Positions 970-6,871 of a DNA stretch of 6,871 nucleotides are shown in pieces. Below the pieces are notes generated by a model. That model ran no database searches, was not told the origin of the DNA, and saw only the letters and a list, made by a program, of their open reading frames with translations. Each line of letters starts with the position of its first letter. The stretch's first letter is position 1. Source of the DNA: Alloprevotella sp. (GTDB lineage: Bacteria > Bacteroidota > Bacteroidia > Bacteroidales > Bacteroidaceae). The stretch covers positions 1-6,871 of the forward strand of contig JAFUXE010000051.1 in the NCBI GenBank assembly GCA_017477205.1, in the 5' to 3' direction. The translations under genes and the position numbers were made by a program.

Positions 970-3861
970 TTATCTGAGGACGATGGGCATGGCGGATGTT
1001 GTGACACCCTCTACGGAGACGGTGATGCTCTGGCAGGACGAGTTGTTGTAGAAGTCCACGGTGGCATGGCCCTTGGCATCCAACTGGACGCTGGGGTTCC
1101 AATAGAGGGTGCGGCGATAGTCCTTTTCGGGCGGTAGGACGGCGTAGTCGGGCATTTCGAAGGAATGTGGAACGTTGTAGCCTTGGAAATGCGTACGTCG
1201 CACGCCTTTCCGCTTGGTGTCGGGTCTTTGGTAGTAGGGATAGACAAAGACGTGGAAGGGGTCGTGGGAGCTCAGGAACGCGCGCTCCGGGATGCGGGTA
1301 TAGTGGCTCTCGTCGTGGTTCAGGGAGACGTAAACCTCGCGCAGTTCGTCAATGTGGACTGCGGGTGCACCCCCCGTGTAGTAGGCGGTTTCGGCACGCG
1401 GATTGGAGACGTAGATGCATTTCCCGTCGTACCAGAGGCCGTTATACATGACGTCGCGGTTCATGAAGCGGTGTTTGTTCATCTCGTTTCTTGTGCTGGC
1501 ATCCAGTTCCTGTTCGTCGCGCTCCCTCTGCGTCATGTTTTCGTCGGTCTGTGCCACGACGCTCATTTCTCCTTCATCCCGCATCGCACTTTCGTCGTAG
1601 CTGTAGGAGGCATAGAGCAGGGTTTCGCCACTGGGATTCTGCTCTCTGTCCAGTTTTTGCAGGGTCACGTCCTGCTGACGGGCGAGATATACTTTTTCGT
1701 CCTTCCCGGGTAGGGAGTAGGAGGCTCTTGAAGCCTCTCCGTAAAGCCATCCGATGCCTCGCTTTTCTTCAAAGAAAGCCTTCGAGAATACTTCCTTGGA
1801 GAGCAGCCAGGCACAGAGCGTGGGGATTTCGAGGCCTCGGTCGGCAAACTCGTCTGCGGCCCGTTCCATGTTGAAATAGAACTGCGACTTCTTTTCTGCA
1901 CCTCGCCGTGTCACCTCCCAGTCCTTGCGTGTGGCATCCCAGGGCCGTTTCTTTCGCTTTACGACGGCCTCGCCCAGTTCATGCGTCTGTCCTGCCGTCC
2001 ACTGTCCGTCGGATTGCCGTGGCGCGTCTTCTTCGGCCTCGTTTCCTTTCGCCTTAAAAACGAAGGCCGGCATGGGAGCCTTTAGCAGTCTGGTTTCTCC
2101 GATGTCGTAGGTGCGTCGTGCGGGGGAGAACAGGCGGTTCAGTGTGATGTAGGGTTCCTTTTTGTCCTCGTTGTTCTTGGTGCTGAGCAGAAGGGTGTGG
2201 TCGCCCTGGCATTCGGGAACGCTGAAGGCGAATTTTCCGTCGGCATCCGTCTGCGTCGTTCCCCGGAAGTTCCCGCTCAGTTCTCCCGAAAGAAAAAGGT
2301 CCAGGGGCACGCCCGCCACATCTTGCCCCTTGCTCCTTGGCTTCAGGATGCCGTCAATGTATAGGCCGTCCTCCAGGGGCTGCTGTCCGTCGAAGGACTG
2401 TTCTCCGGCCATTTGCGCCCAGTCGTAACGCGTCCACCCCTGCACGAGGCAGAGCAGGTCTGCCCCCTGTCGATGCGCGTTGTCATCCGCCTCGAAATAG
2501 TAGTCGGCATCCCTGACAAAGCCCCGCAGGTCGGAGGAAAGCAGGAGATATGTCGCCGCATTGCCCTTGAAGTCGTTTGTTGTCGTTTCTGCATCGCGCA
2601 CGGCGAGGGAGACGGTTGCTCCTGCGGCCTGCGGAGAGGATGCCGTGGCTTGGAGTTGTAGGGTCAGGCGTTGGCAGGGTGCGATGATACTGTCCGTGAA
2701 CGATGCTTCCACGCGTGGGAGGTCGCGGGGAGGAATGAAAAAGTGGCGCTGTGCCCAGATGCGGCCCTCTGCGTCGAAGAGCGTAAGCTGATGGACGCCT
2801 GCTGGCAGTTCGTTGCGGGGAAAGGACAGCATGACAGGTTCTTCGGTGCTCATCGTGAGCACCTGGAATGCCAGCACGTTACCGTCGTGGATGAGGGAGA
2901 GACCCAGCTCGCTGCCTTCCAGTGCGGGCGAAGCCGTCACCTGCACGCCCACCTGTCGCGCCGCCACGGCGTTCACGGTGAGTGCGCAGCCCTCCTCTTC
3001 CGCTTTCGGCAGGGGGAAGGTATGCTCCCGTCCGTTACCGAATTGGAGGGCGAGGACGAGCGGTTCGTCTGTCGGTGTGCAGAGGAAGGTGCCGCGTCCC
3101 TCGCGGAGCGTCCGCACCTGTTCCAGCACTTCGCCGCCTGCCGTGCGGAGTTCGCCTTCGGCACGCACATCTGTGGAGTCGGGGATGGTGATGCTGAAAG
3201 CCACCGTGCTTGTGAGTCCCTGCACCAGCTGCCCGCCTTCCGGATAGAAAGAAACCTGCGGCCCGTTGTAACGCCTGTGGCTCTTTGCCTTGCCGTCTGC
3301 GTCGTCTTCGTCACTGCCCGTACGGAAGCTGACGAAGTCCTCCTGAATCTCCATGCGCGAATAGTCACCTTCCTGCTGTGGCCTTGCAAATACCGGCACA
3401 ACGCGTGAGAAGATGTTCTCTGCCGGCCAGTTCGTCATGTATCGCGTGTAGGCGCGAATCTCATAGAATCCCGTTGCGCGCGGCTTTTCCAGGGATATGT
3501 CGCCGTGGCATTGCCCGTTCTCAATCTTCAGCTTCTGCGTCTCCAGAATCTCCCCGAAGGGATCGACCAACTCCACGTACAGCACGCGGCTCAGGTTCGT
3601 GAATGCCGCCGTGTCCGGGCGCACCACGTAGGCTTTGTACCATATCCTCTCGCCCATGAAGTACCCCGTGTTGTCGAGGTGCAGATACACCTTTTCCTGC
3701 GGCAGCAGGCGCGTGAAAGCCTCCGCATTGCGGACGCTTGCTGCGAGGCGTTCGCGCCCGGTGTCCGTCTGCGCCTTGGAGGGTAGGGGAGAGCCGACGG
3801 CAAGAACCGTGGCAAGGACTGTCGCGAGGTAAAGACGTGTGTGGAGGAGGTGTTTTTTCAT
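970..3861 (-). CDS. Secreted MG2-domain / carboxypeptidase-regulatory-like envelope protein
   Basis: This encodes a 963-residue exported protein of a family common in Bacteroidales and usually annotated as hypothetical, MG2-domain or TonB-plug-like. A signal peptide is clear at residues 1-30: MKK start, hydrophobic core, SKA before QTD. Residues about 54-160 form a macroglobulin MG2-like domain with the family hallmark QEKVYLHLDNTGYFMGERIW. The middle carries SSDLRGF and VQGWTRYDW (about 440-480), also family-typical. A carboxypeptidase regulatory-like beta domain follows at about 496-570 (GVPLDLFLSG...TDADGKFAFSV). The C-terminal third resembles a plug-like region and ends in a beta-rich tail (YWNPSVQLDAKGHATVDFYN, about 920-940). 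No beta-barrel is present, so it is not a complete TonB receptor. The likely location is periplasm or outer membrane; the molecular role is unknown. The gene stands alone, convergent with the rRNA operon and divergent from the methyltransferase gene. Long ORFs on the opposite strand are shadows. Confidence 0.9.
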   Translation of the reverse strand: MKKHLLHTRLYLATVLATVLAVGSPLPSKAQTDTGRERLAASVRNAEAFTRLLPQEKVYLHLDNTGYFMGERIWYKAYVVRPDTAAFTNLSRVLYVELVDPFGEILETQKLKIENGQCHGDISLEKPRATGFYEIRAYTRYMTNWPAENIFSRVVPVFARPQQEGDYSRMEIQEDFVSFRTGSDEDDADGKAKSHRRYNGPQVSFYPEGGQLVQGLTSTVAFSITIPDSTDVRAEGELRTAGGEVLEQVRTLREGRGTFLCTPTDEPLVLALQFGNGREHTFPLPKAEEEGCALTVNAVAARQVGVQVTASPALEGSELGLSLIHDGNVLAFQVLTMSTEEPVMLSFPRNELPAGVHQLTLFDAEGRIWAQRHFFIPPRDLPRVEASFTDSIIAPCQRLTLQLQATASSPQAAGATVSLAVRDAETTTNDFKGNAATYLLLSSDLRGFVRDADYYFEADDNAHRQGADLLCLVQGWTRYDWAQMAGEQSFDGQQPLEDGLYIDGILKPRSKGQDVAGVPLDLFLSGELSGNFRGTTQTDADGKFAFSVPECQGDHTLLLSTKNNEDKKEPYITLNRLFSPARRTYDIGETRLLKAPMPAFVFKAKGNEAEEDAPRQSDGQWTAGQTHELGEAVVKRKKRPWDATRKDWEVTRRGAEKKSQFYFNMERAADEFADRGLEIPTLCAWLLSKEVFSKAFFEEKRGIGWLYGEASRASYSLPGKDEKVYLARQQDVTLQKLDREQNPSGETLLYASYSYDESAMRDEGEMSVVAQTDENMTQRERDEQELDASTRNEMNKHRFMNRDVMYNGLWYDGKCIYVSNPRAETAYYTGGAPAVHIDELREVYVSLNHDESHYTRIPERAFLSSHDPFHVFVYPYYQRPDTKRKGVRRTHFQGYNVPHSFEMPDYAVLPPEKDYRRTLYWNPSVQLDAKGHATVDFYNNSSCQSITVSVEGVTTSAMPIVLR

Positions 3862-3943: not shown

Positions 3944-4735
3944 ATGGAAGAAATCATAACGAGCGGGCAGAATCCCCGCGTGAAGGCTGTCGTGGCCTTG
4001 CAGCAGAAGGCTTCCGAGCGTCGCCGCACCGGACTGTTCGTGGTGGAGGGGCAACGCGAACTCTCCCACGCCCTTGCGGCTGGCTACGAAATGGAGACGC
4101 TTTACTATTGTCCCGAGATCTGCGGCGAACAGGCTTTGCCGATTTTTGGCGAAGCTCGTACGTGCGTGGCCGTTTCCCGCAATGTCTATGCCAAGATGGC
4201 CTATCGCGAAGGCACGGAGGGCGTGCTCGCCGTGTTGCGGGCAAGGCACTTGGCCCTTGAGGATCTCCCCCGTGTGGATGCGCCGCTCTACGTCGTCCTC
4301 GAGAGTGTGGAAAAGCCCGGGAACCTCGGTGCCGTGCTGCGTAGTGCCGATGCGGCCCGTGCCGATGCCGTCATACTATGCGATGCCCTTGCCGACCTTT
4401 ACAATCCCAATCTCATCCGCAGTTCCCTGGGGGCCCGCTTCACGGTGCCCGTCGTGGCCTGTTCTTCTACGGAGTGTATCGCGTTCCTGAAACGTCGCGG
4501 TGTCCGCATCCTGACGGCACAGTTGCAGGATTCCGAACTCTACTATGCCACCGACATGCGTCGTGCCACGGCCCTCGTGATGGGTACCGAGAGCACAGGT
4601 CTCACCACCGCCTGGCGTGAAGCTGCCGATGCCCACATCCGCATCCCCATGCGCGGCCGCCTGGATTCGCTGAATGTCTCCGTCAGTGCCGCCATCCTGC
4701 TCTTCGAAGCCGTCCGTCAGCGGCTTGGCGAGTAG
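3944..4735 (+). CDS. SpoU/TrmH-family RNA 2'-O-ribose methyltransferase
   Basis: The 263-residue product is an S-adenosylmethionine-dependent methyltransferase that modifies a ribose 2'-OH in rRNA or tRNA. The N-terminal substrate-binding domain covers about residues 5-105 (FVVEGQREL at 32-40). The SPOUT catalytic domain covers about 115-260 with all three motifs. Motif 1 is EKPGNLGAVLR at 123-133, containing the conserved Asn127 and Arg133. Motif 2 is GTESTGL at 214-220, and motif 3 is DSLNVSVSAAI at 241-251. The frame is open upstream to 3839, but that would overlap the divergent gene's start and both promoters. The ATG at 3944 fits the family N-terminus and the -7 element at 3915. The exact target (for example the RlmB site in 23S) cannot be told from sequence. 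The gene is monocistronic and ends before a strong terminator. Confidence 0.93.
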   Translation: MEEIITSGQNPRVKAVVALQQKASERRRTGLFVVEGQRELSHALAAGYEMETLYYCPEICGEQALPIFGEARTCVAVSRNVYAKMAYREGTEGVLAVLRARHLALEDLPRVDAPLYVVLESVEKPGNLGAVLRSADAARADAVILCDALADLYNPNLIRSSLGARFTVPVVACSSTECIAFLKRRGVRILTAQLQDSELYYATDMRRATALVMGTESTGLTTAWREAADAHIRIPMRGRLDSLNVSVSAAILLFEAVRQRLGE

Positions 4736-4778: not shown

Positions 4779-4820
4779 AATCGCCGCAAGCGCCCTATGC
4801 CGCCTGCGGCGATTTTTTTT
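4779..4820 (+). terminator. Intrinsic terminator after the methyltransferase gene
   Basis: AATCGCCGCA (4779-4788) pairs perfectly with TGCGGCGATT (4805-4814) around a 16-nt loop, and the T run continues to 4820. It separates the methyltransferase from the recombinase gene, so the latter needs its own promoter. Confidence 0.92.
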
Positions 4821-4863: not shown

Positions 4864-5886
4864 ATGAAAAAACAATTAGGCAACAAAATGGATGGAAATG
4901 ACAGGAAGCGGGTACGGAAGATGCTCGCTTTCTTGGATTCAGAGGTGGACACGCTTGTCCGCAGGAACAAGCTGGGACTGGCAGAAAACTACAGGAGCAG
5001 CGGACGCAGCCTGCTGTGCTACCTCACAACGCAGCACCGGAAGGACATTCCGCTCCGGAAGCTTTCCGAGGAGCTACTCTTTGGCTATCAGCAGTGGCTA
5101 CAGGAGAGGGGCGTCAAGAAAAATACGTCCGTATTCTACATGCGTAACCTCCACGCTGTGTATAATAAGGCCGTCAAGGGCGGGTTGGTCGCAGACGCCC
5201 ATCCTTTTGTCAACATCCCCACAAACATCACCCATACGGACAAACGTGCTGTGACGCCAGAACTCATCAGGAGCATCAGTACGCTTGACATCCCTGGCGG
5301 ACTTGTCAGGTTGGGGCAGGATCCCGGGAAAAAGCCGTTTCTACGTATGTGTCGTGAGCTCACGTTTGCCCGCGACATTTTCATCTTCTGCTTCTGCGCC
5401 CGTGGACTGACCTTTGTGGATTTTGCTTACCTGAAGCACGAGAACATCCGGCATGGATGCATCGTCTATGAACGACGCAAGACGGGACAGTTCATAGAAG
5501 TAGAGATACAAGCGAAGATGCGTGGTTTCATTGAACAATATGGCACGAAAGGCGGGCCGTATCTCTTCCCCGTTCTTACCAGCGGCGATGTGGGCGAGGC
5601 ACATAGGCAATATGCCTCTGCGCTGCGCCGTTACAACAAGCATCTGAACAGACTCTCAGAGATGCTGGGCATGGATACAAGCCTGACCTCGTACGTGTCC
5701 CGTCACTCCTGGGCCACCGCCGCATACCATGCAGATATGCCCATGCCGTATATCAGTGAGGCAATGGGCCACACGTCAGAGCATACTACGCGCATCTACT
5801 TGAAATCGCTTGAAAGTAGCAGGATTGATTTGGAGAACAAACGGCTTTTGGATGGAATCTTCAAGTGCGGCTCTCTTTTAGGATAA
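4864..5886 (+). CDS. Tyrosine recombinase, probable local DNA invertase
   Basis: The 340-residue product is a tyrosine-type site-specific recombinase of the Bacteroidales integrase class. The N-terminal SAM-like DNA-binding domain covers about 15-110. The catalytic domain covers about 165-330, with Arg180 (FCARGLTFVD), Lys206 (RRKTGQ), Arg280 (SYVSRHSWAT), His303 (MGHTSEHTT) and the nucleophile Tyr312 (RIYL). Tyr277 occupies the first position of the usual HxxR box. The frame extends upstream to 4759, but that start lies inside or before the preceding terminator, so ATG 4864 is preferred; ATG 4888 is possible. I see no convincing promoter in 4821-4863, only a TTG at 4824 and TATAAG at 4848. 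The stop codon (5884-5886) lies inside a 26-bp inverted repeat whose partner is at 6082-6107. Position, size and the adjacent sites point to a dedicated invertase of the promoter segment rather than a phage integrase. Confidence 0.92.
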   Translation: MKKQLGNKMDGNDRKRVRKMLAFLDSEVDTLVRRNKLGLAENYRSSGRSLLCYLTTQHRKDIPLRKLSEELLFGYQQWLQERGVKKNTSVFYMRNLHAVYNKAVKGGLVADAHPFVNIPTNITHTDKRAVTPELIRSISTLDIPGGLVRLGQDPGKKPFLRMCRELTFARDIFIFCFCARGLTFVDFAYLKHENIRHGCIVYERRKTGQFIEVEIQAKMRGFIEQYGTKGGPYLFPVLTSGDVGEAHRQYASALRRYNKHLNRLSEMLGMDTSLTSYVSRHSWATAAYHADMPMPYISEAMGHTSEHTTRIYLKSLESSRIDLENKRLLDGIFKCGSLLG

Positions 5887-5894
5887 GAGAGCCA
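5869..5894 (+). repeat. Left inverted repeat / recombination site (IR-L)
   Basis: This 26-bp sequence is the exact reverse complement of 6082-6107. Internally it has two perfect 9-bp palindromic arms, GGCTCTCTT (5869-5877) and AAGAGAGCC (5885-5893), around an asymmetric 7-bp core TTAGGAT (5878-5884). That is the layout of a tyrosine recombinase core site. It overlaps the last codons and stop of the recombinase gene. No T run follows, so it is unlikely to be just a terminator. Confidence 0.93.
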
Positions 5895-5905
5895 CAATTC
5901 GGAAG

Positions 5906-5913
5906 CAAAGGTA
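5906..5913 (-). promoter_or_regulatory. -7 element of the invertible promoter, now facing left
   Basis: On the minus strand this reads TACCTTTG, a perfect TAnnTTTG match, with a T-rich stretch just upstream. The -33 region about 20 bp upstream (TTTAACA) is a poor match to TTTG. As drawn, transcription would start near 5900 and run through IR-L into the recombinase gene as antisense. After inversion the element would lie at about 6063-6070 on the plus strand, starting transcription near 6076. That gives a leader of about 55 nt ahead of the antiterminator gene at 6131. Confidence 0.65.
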
Positions 5914-5927
5914 ACAAAAAACCAAAT

Positions 5928-6000
5928 ACACCTGTTAAATAATGAGGAGAATTTTCAAACTAGGAATTTTTACCCCTCCCGTTTTTAATACTTGTTAAAT
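5928..6000 (+). repeat. Short direct repeat pair inside the invertible segment
   Basis: Positions 5928-5940 and 5988-6000 match at 11 of 13 bases and share the core TGTTAAAT, exactly 60 bp apart. They may be binding sites for a regulator or accessory sites for the recombinase. Chance similarity in AT-rich DNA is not excluded. Confidence 0.4.
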
Positions 6001-6081
6001 GGGGATAACGGGTGAATAAATGACGGATTTCGTGTCATCACAACAGTATTAATTATCAGATTTACTGTGAGTAGCAAAAAC

Positions 6082-6107
6082 TGGCTCTCTTATCCTAAAA
6101 GAGAGCC
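6082..6107 (+). repeat. Right inverted repeat / recombination site (IR-R)
   Basis: This is the exact reverse complement of IR-L over 26 bp, with arms at 6083-6091 and 6099-6107 and core ATCCTAA at 6092-6098. The cores are opposed, so recombination between the sites inverts the DNA between them. It lies 23 bp before the antiterminator start codon. It would be part of that gene's leader in the ON state, where it can fold as a 9-bp hairpin. Confidence 0.93.
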
Positions 6108-6130
6108 AGAAATGACATATTGGGTCCGAT

Positions 6131-6871
6131 ATGGATGCATTGTCTAAGGCTCGCATAGCGGTAGAAAACTCAGGTGAAGGCCCGTCCCCCTTCACGCCCC
6201 CCAAGGCCACGCACTCAACGTCAGGGGTGTCGGTGGAATACACCCCGGAGCCTGGCAAGGGCTGGTTCGTCCTCCGCGCCTCCTACGGGCGCTCCCGGAA
6301 GGCGGCGGACCTGCTCATCGGCCAGGGACACTATGTCTATGCGGCGCAGCGCTATGAATACCGCACCGTGAACGGCCGCAAGCGGAAGGAGCTCAGGGAG
6401 CTCATCCCCAACATGCTGTTCGCCTATGCCGGCAGGGAGGAAATCAGGCGGCTGCTCTCAAGGAAGGAAGCCGCGCCCTCCCCCCTCCCCCAGCTGGCCA
6501 TGATAGCCACCTTCTACTACAACCACTTCGTGCGGGAAGAGGGCAGGAACCCCCCGCTCGAGATACCGGAGCGCCAGATGCTGGACTTCATAAGGATGAC
6601 CGTCTCGAGGGACGAGAACATCGTATATGTCAGCGACGGCAGCATCGTCCATGTGAAGAAGGACGACCCGGTCCTCGTCACCGAGGGGAAGTTCAAGGGC
6701 TGCATGGGGAAGGTGGTGCGCATAGCCGGCCAGCAGAGGGTCGGCCTGCAGCTGGCGGAGCTCGGCTGGGTGGCCACGTCCTACGTCCCCACGGCATTCA
6801 TCGAGGTCGTCCCCCGCGACGTTTACGACGCCCGCCTCCGCGAGGTAAAACCCGGCAGCACCGCGGCACGC
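6131..6871 (+). CDS. upxY: UpxY-family NusG-like transcription antiterminator (3' end beyond window)
   Basis: The frame is open for 247 codons to the window edge. Residues about 44-165 form a NusG N-terminal (NGN) domain: GWFVLRASYGRSRKAADLL, then RKELRELIPNMLFAYAGREE. Residues about 180-226 form a KOW domain: VLVTEGKFKGCMGKVVRI, then GQQRVGLQLAELGWVATSYV. This combination matches UpxY proteins. In Bacteroides these bind RNA polymerase in the leader of a capsular polysaccharide operon and stop premature termination, so the gene is normally first in such an operon. The first 40 residues, rich in Ser, Pro and Thr, are an extension beyond NusG. ATG 6131 is the first in-frame start after a stop at 6113-6115. 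It lies 23 bp from IR-R, and no promoter faces it in the present orientation. Base composition rises sharply in GC within the first 50 bases. Polysaccharide genes would be expected to the right, but none is visible here. Confidence 0.88.
   Translation, partial: MDALSKARIAVENSGEGPSPFTPPKATHSTSGVSVEYTPEPGKGWFVLRASYGRSRKAADLLIGQGHYVYAAQRYEYRTVNGRKRKELRELIPNMLFAYAGREEIRRLLSRKEAAPSPLPQLAMIATFYYNHFVREEGRNPPLEIPERQMLDFIRMTVSRDENIVYVSDGSIVHVKKDDPVLVTEGKFKGCMGKVVRIAGQQRVGLQLAELGWVATSYVPTAFIEVVPRDVYDARLREVKPGSTAAR

Follow-up and report, generated by a model that had tools for sequence, protein, structure and literature searches.

Positions 1 to 6,871 of contig JAFUXE010000051.1 from an Alloprevotella sp. 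genome (GCA_017477205.1), the whole stretch that we analysed and hereafter the window, end in a tyrosine recombinase gene, a short segment between inverted repeats, and the beginning of a upxY-family antiterminator gene. We conclude that these parts very probably make up a switch for phase variation of the kind known from Bacteroidales capsule loci. The window is assembled in the OFF orientation, with no consensus promoter facing upxY, and both orientations occur among relatives. The features are as follows.

4864-5886, plus strand: tyrosine recombinase of 340 amino acids (aa), the likely invertase (PF13102 and PF00589; a relative aligns from residue 1)
5869-5894, plus strand: left 26-bp inverted repeat, a palindromic core site with arms at 5869-5877 and 5885-5893 and a spacer at 5878-5884 (inverted-repeat search)
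5895-6081, no strand: 187-bp segment, 66% AT, bounded by the repeats and predicted to invert
5906-5913, minus strand: -7 promoter element TACCTTTG, separated by 11 bp from the left repeat, facing the recombinase and OFF for upxY (motif search)
6082-6107, minus strand: right 26-bp inverted repeat, expected to fold into a hairpin in the ON transcript's 5' leader (inverted-repeat search)
6108-6130, plus strand: 23-bp leader from the right repeat to upxY, with TGACATA and TCCGAT in common with the homologue in genome G461 (sequence comparison)
6131-6871, plus strand: upxY-family transcription antiterminator gene, cut by the window end (NF033644)
4779-4814, plus strand: terminator-like hairpin (inverted-repeat search) followed by a T run (read by eye), between an upstream methyltransferase gene and the recombinase gene

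The recombinase reading frame matched PF13102 (1e-14) and the catalytic domain PF00589 (1.6e-9; 38.2 bits against a cut-off of 27.1), both above the Pfam cut-offs. Guided by the box motifs that we take to mark the catalytic stretches, we placed the Arg, Lys, RH, GH and Tyr boxes by eye and position; in the HxxR box the first His is replaced by Tyr. No solved structure matched the protein at E 0.001. A protein collection contained 911 related proteins with a top identity of 80%, and the closest relative in the genomes searched, from G393, shared 73% identity in an alignment starting at residue 1. The stop codon of the window gene, TAA (5884-5886), falls inside the left repeat.

The left repeat, GGCTCTCTTTTAGGATAAGAGAGCCA (5869-5894), returns as its exact reverse complement at 6082-6107 (26 bp, 100%), with 187 bp between the copies. 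Each copy is itself a palindrome of two 9-bp arms around a 7-bp spacer, GGCTCTCTT-N7-AAGAGAGCC. A palindromic core site with a spacer is the form expected for a tyrosine recombinase. By our own repeat scoring the window pair reaches 26, and in 1340 shuffling trials of the downstream regions of 67 loci a score of at least 14, our threshold for a repeat pair, arose in 0.15%, the highest being 15. An expected closer agreement of the two copies of each repeat in the centre was not borne out, with mismatches at 5/266 central and 13/572 other positions.

Repeat pairs recur behind related recombinases. Our first survey comprised 67 distinct recombinase loci including the window, 56 of them with at least 500 bp downstream. 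A pair followed the recombinase at 39/56 loci (window included), compared with 3/63 in a control search upstream. In the 40-locus set of segments, L002 (shorter downstream) was added and L153 omitted as a possible assembly artefact. At L153 (G510:C20, 2418-2709), 74-bp inverted repeats at the contig end overlap the 3' part of the recombinase coding sequence.

TAnnTTTG, which we take to be the -7 promoter consensus, occurs once in the window segment, where the minus strand reads TACCTTTG at 5906-5913. Since this sole consensus element points away from upxY, the window shows the OFF orientation. Chance alone would place TAnnTTTG within 50 bp of a repeat in ~9% of cases for the window segment, so the element is convincing only together with the relatives, where it was present in 36/40 repeat-bounded segments vs 3.4 expected from shuffles. 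The arrangement is that of an inverton, a promoter bracketed by inverted repeats beyond chance, with the promoter judged over the 40 loci.

The upxY gene starts with an ATG at 6131, 23 bp past the right repeat. Its product scored 105.4 bits to NF033644 (cut-off 100) despite being incomplete, and 20.5 to Pfam NusG, below the cut-off of 22.2. The first-pass annotation had called the recombinase gene, the perfect 26-bp repeats around 187 bp, their core-site architecture and the UpxY-type gene at this distance, and each call was borne out by the domain matches, coordinates and shuffles above. It had also called a consensus promoter in the segment, which holds for the -7 element, and it was silent on the direction of that promoter, which is leftward. 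The leader hairpins folded better than shuffles (z -2.74 and -2.94), the former value belonging to the natural ON leader of the G461 homologue. Elsewhere, G259:C2 carries two divergent upxY homologues about 1.1 kb apart (2616-3122, minus strand; 4209-4730, plus strand).

Using a home-built UpxY profile, the next gene was UpxY-like at 30/38 repeat loci with >600 bp past the repeats. Because this profile was made partly from the loci it scored, scans with NF033644 serve as an independent check. At E ≤0.1 these recovered 19/20 submitted proteins (L062 was missed), four of them above the curated cut-off; one of the 20 (L125) has no recombinase next to it, and L073 is represented by its second gene. 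At L061, L062, L063, L065, L066, L067, L077 and L078 the repeats are followed by divergent UpxY-like proteins (317-388 aa), all below the NCBIfam UpxY cut-off. A Pfam scan of nine proteins in this size range returned no NusG match, and the L067 protein matched KOW just above the cut-off.

The window ends inside upxY, and our view of the genes behind the switch comes from relatives. We scanned 39 proteins from five loci with ~15 kb downstream (L061, L063, L064, L065, and L078); L070, of similar length and with repeats, was left out. Flippase-type and glycosyltransferase genes were present in 5/5, EpsG-type genes in 3/5, and pyruvyl transferases in 2/5. At L063 an AlbA/HATPase gene came first and a Wzy match fell below the cut-off. 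L071 and L073 had UDP-GlcNAc 2-epimerase and polysaccharide export genes downstream, and L052 had a sub-threshold match to glycosyltransferase 4. The earlier proposal of a surface polysaccharide operon behind the switch is therefore seen in the relatives scanned (5/5 long loci, L071, and L073), and for the window itself such an operon is predicted by analogy.

Relatives of the whole cassette were sought in 139 genomes of the genus of G393, the genome with the best recombinase match. Genome G461, among these, contained a upxY homologue with 72-73% identity, preceded by two inverted copies of the window arms; the enclosed TACCTTTG faces upxY, which makes this cassette ON. In the 1.5 kb ahead of this upxY, where a 1294-aa frame ends, the recombinase query had no match; on other contigs of G461 it aligned once at 43% across the C-terminal half and once weakly. 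The exact arm pattern was found in 2/139 genomes, with two sites in G461 and one in G393, and a reversed control pattern in 0/139. Allowing ≤3 mismatches, G393 had two further arm matches, one with 1 mismatch and one with 3. The latter is no better than chance, because at this tolerance the control pattern matches once in G461 and once in G393. The G393 recombinase and the two arm-matching sites (exact and 1 mismatch) are spread over three contigs. From these sequence comparisons, site and recombinase tend to co-occur, in few genomes and not always adjacent.

G393 also contains two similar NusG-like genes, on C81 (L125:5168-5844) and C1 (L131), each behind a rightward TACCTTTG and a single palindrome. 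With ≤3 mismatches, no mates of these palindromes were found in the G393 assembly save one 3-mismatch match on another contig. These may be locked-ON versions, or leader hairpins with a role of their own.

We compared segment orientation across relatives by motif and by alignment. In the 40 segments of the first survey, 35 were OFF, one ON (L049), and four uncalled; L046, L047, and L134 are nearly identical, and counting the three as one gives 33 OFF and 1 ON. Among those counted OFF, L071 (3783-4008) contains another TACCTTTG, pointing rightward at ~59 bp from the right repeat. With elements directed outward to both ends of the segment, each flank could have a promoter facing it whichever way the segment lies. 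Rightward motif matches also occur at L065 and L069, far inside the segment. An additional order-wide set comprised 68 loci, most of them more remote (31-41% identity where repeats were present); repeats occurred at 30/68, with 17 OFF, 7 ON, and 6 uncalled. A separate upxY survey of 80 regions, 79 of them analysed (one had no usable upxY edge), gave 55/79 loci without repeats. Loci with repeats and a recombinase beside them were 1 OFF, 3 ON, and 1 uncalled, and those with repeats and no recombinase found upstream were 9 OFF, 5 ON, and 5 uncalled. The repeat contained ACGTTCGT at 14/19 of the latter loci, and two regions (L213 and L214) had <460 bp upstream, too short to show a neighbouring recombinase. 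A general OFF rule for recombinase-adjacent switches fails, with 7 ON loci in the order-wide set and 3 in the upxY survey.

BLAST alignments between segments agreed with the motif calls throughout. In 53/53 pairs with both members called, the alignment orientation matched: like-called pairs (31 OFF/OFF, 2 ON/ON) aligned in the same direction and the 20 OFF/ON pairs in opposite directions, with 0 disagreements; five further pairs included an uncalled member. Eighteen of the 20 opposite pairs came from the upxY set (no recombinase found upstream) and two from recombinase loci. The latter are L043/L267, inverted over 254 bp at 87% with next genes that are not UpxY-like, and L266/L270, inverted over 58 bp at 83% with UpxY-like next genes. 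The G461 segment had no BLAST match among the other collected segments.

A tree of 70 recombinases placed the window in a supported 20-row set (100/99) that was 20/20 OFF. Outside this clade there were 32 OFF and 8 ON rows, the latter representing eight separate changes (Fisher p 0.043 for the clade against the rest, with rows that are related and not independent). The G461 cassette, ON and without an adjacent recombinase, is absent from the tree. That 20/20 loci of the window's recombinase clade were assembled OFF is the new observation here.

We infer that in this organism the tyrosine recombinase would cut and rejoin the two 26-bp palindromic core sites, inverting the 187-bp promoter segment. 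In the state seen in the window the promoter faces the recombinase gene, and upxY has no consensus promoter. Inversion would place TACCTTTG 12 bp ahead of the GGCTCTCTT of the right repeat, compared with 13 bp in the G461 ON promoter. In the ON transcript the right repeat would form a leader hairpin ahead of upxY, and the UpxY protein, judging from its family, would act as an antiterminator that lets RNA polymerase read through the polysaccharide operon presumably behind the gene. The window would then represent one more Bacteroidales surface-sugar switch, with its own recognition sequence, and a recombinase clade paired with a recognition site. As 3/9 named relatives came from sheep rumen or yak reticulum, the kind reaches beyond human-gut models.

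The layout is already published for Bacteroidales (PMC12118408, PMC13114119); the comparisons here and below draw on excerpts of the papers cited. PMC12118408 describes capsule operons of P. distasonis, B. xylanisolvens, and B. thetaiotaomicron with palindromic repeats, integrases or invertases before them, and NusG or UpxY genes first; in P. distasonis, 10/12 capsule operons have 17-bp repeats, an integrase before, and a NusG gene first. The window shares with these loci the order of parts, the palindromic repeats, and the antiterminator as first gene, but differs in its arms (GGCTCTCTT vs GTTAC or GCTAC) and in its segment length (187 bp vs 280-345 bp). In B. fragilis, Tsr19 (BF2766) has a local promoter, IVp-I, for an extracellular polysaccharide operon; this promoter stood mostly OFF in cultured cells and in the majority of the human faeces examined (PMC4747536). 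The likeness is one of layout, a tyrosine recombinase with an invertible polysaccharide-operon promoter immediately downstream; unlike the window as seen, Tsr19 also flips a distant promoter. P. vulgatus CL10 has a recombinase gene, invertible promoter, upxY, and polysaccharide locus in the same order as the window, and only a -7 element is named in either, but its neighbouring recombinase is defective and its promoter almost always ON (PMC13114119). More broadly, UpxY and invertase genes are enriched near invertons, with invertases generally oriented beyond the promoter's reach (PMC11892184).

Switches of the Mpi kind are described in PMC8375218 and PMC12632263, and Mpi itself, a serine recombinase, has many target regions, whose repeats are of the ACGTTCGT type (PMC8375218, PMC4747536). 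Like the Mpi-inverted capsule promoters of B. fragilis, the window has an invertible promoter before upxY. Unlike them it has a neighbouring tyrosine recombinase and other repeats, of the form GGCTCTCTT-N7-AAGAGAGCC and not the ACGTTCGT type, although a distant serine invertase may act on it.

Several observations weigh against a phase switch built from these parts. No TTTG was seen by eye at the -33 position, which is not consensus in the window. BLAST of the window segment against all other collected segments returned no match. The repeat pair was absent after the recombinase at 17/56 loci, including L001, L074, and L076 with 43-44% identity, and in the order-wide set the next gene was UpxY-like at only 6/30 loci with repeats, so the pairing of recombinase and switch is wider than the UpxY output. 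No recombinase adjoins the G461 cassette, and the 210 bp that follow the G393 recombinase on its contig are free of repeats. The evidence for inversion consists of orientations compared between genomes, none of them within one population. The proposals of the first-pass annotation are narrowed by these points. Flipped forms do exist in related genomes, as opposite orientations between genomes (G461 vs the window, L043/L267, and L266/L270). Recombinase, invertible promoter, and UpxY gene go together in the closer relatives (30/38) but usually not in the distant ones, and the description of the recombinase as dedicated and the switch as self-contained is put in question by G461, G393 and the second, distant target of B. 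fragilis Tsr19.

These same two genomes favor an account that we regard as possible, if doubtful, in which the segment inverts but its enzyme comes from a gene elsewhere, or the neighbouring recombinase works on distant sites as well, a master invertase in the manner of Mpi or Tsr19. On this account the window would be one output of a wider circuit and not self-contained. The G461 cassette without a neighbouring recombinase and the scatter of the G393 recombinase and its two arm-matching sites over three contigs fit such an account, and excerpts of published work offer precedents in Tsr19, with one local and one distant target promoter (PMC4747536), and in the P. vulgatus promoter that still inverts beside a defective recombinase (PMC13114119). 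Against it stand the repeats directly after the recombinase at 39/56 loci, the position of the window recombinase stop codon inside the repeat, and the absence of the exact arm pattern from 137/139 genus genomes. The uniform OFF assembly of the recombinase clade (20/20) might instead mean a frozen relic, whose repeats no longer invert and whose upxY is permanently off or served by another promoter. We find this very unlikely given a recombinase frame open over 340 aa, perfect 26-bp repeats, and ON forms both in G461 and in 8/70 tree rows at eight separate places. Harder still to credit is a main role for the palindromes at the RNA level, as a leader hairpin that might, for example, load the antiterminator, with inversion secondary. 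The two G393 NusG-like genes with a promoter and a single unmated palindrome in the leader, and leaders that fold better than shuffles, are what this would predict; however, a palindromic core site folds as RNA anyway, 39/56 loci retain a matched inverted pair that a hairpin alone would not need, and the repeats at other recombinase loci are quite different.

The phase-switch interpretation leaves room for a further idea, testable but in our view unlikely, that would account for the OFF assembly of the clade: the switch may be biased by itself to OFF, with capsule expression a brief excursion from that default. The OFF promoter would fire antisense into the recombinase gene and lower recombinase, and the ON position would release recombinase, which would flip the segment back. 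The E. coli fim switch shows orientational control of fimE. Like FimE, the window enzyme is a tyrosine recombinase encoded beside its switch, so that orientation could feed back, a likeness of layout only; if true, the self-bias would be a Bacteroidales counterpart of fimE control. The 20/20 OFF count fits this idea without proving it, as habitat selection for OFF would look identical, and other clades with an adjacent recombinase include ON members. In the titles and first lines of abstracts listed from an open-licence library we found no work on this site or on antisense self-bias, with the site sequence itself not queried.

A mobile-element reading is disfavored. Plasmid searches with the DNA of 5850-6871 and with the UpxY protein gave no match, and the exact site was not found in viral contigs, the recombinase itself not having been searched in either.

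Elsewhere in the window, a minus-strand frame (970-3861) encodes a 963-aa protein with a sub-threshold MG2 match and no NCBIfam match at E 0.001. The 3' end of the 23S rRNA gene and a 5S rRNA gene occupy 1-302 and 443-554. Near this rRNA region are hairpins at 560-595 and 874-909, and two near-identical 85-bp copies (634-718 and 790-874), 156 bp apart, have a 40-bp stretch in common with the 3' end of the 5S gene. The switch sits a few kb behind the rRNA operon.

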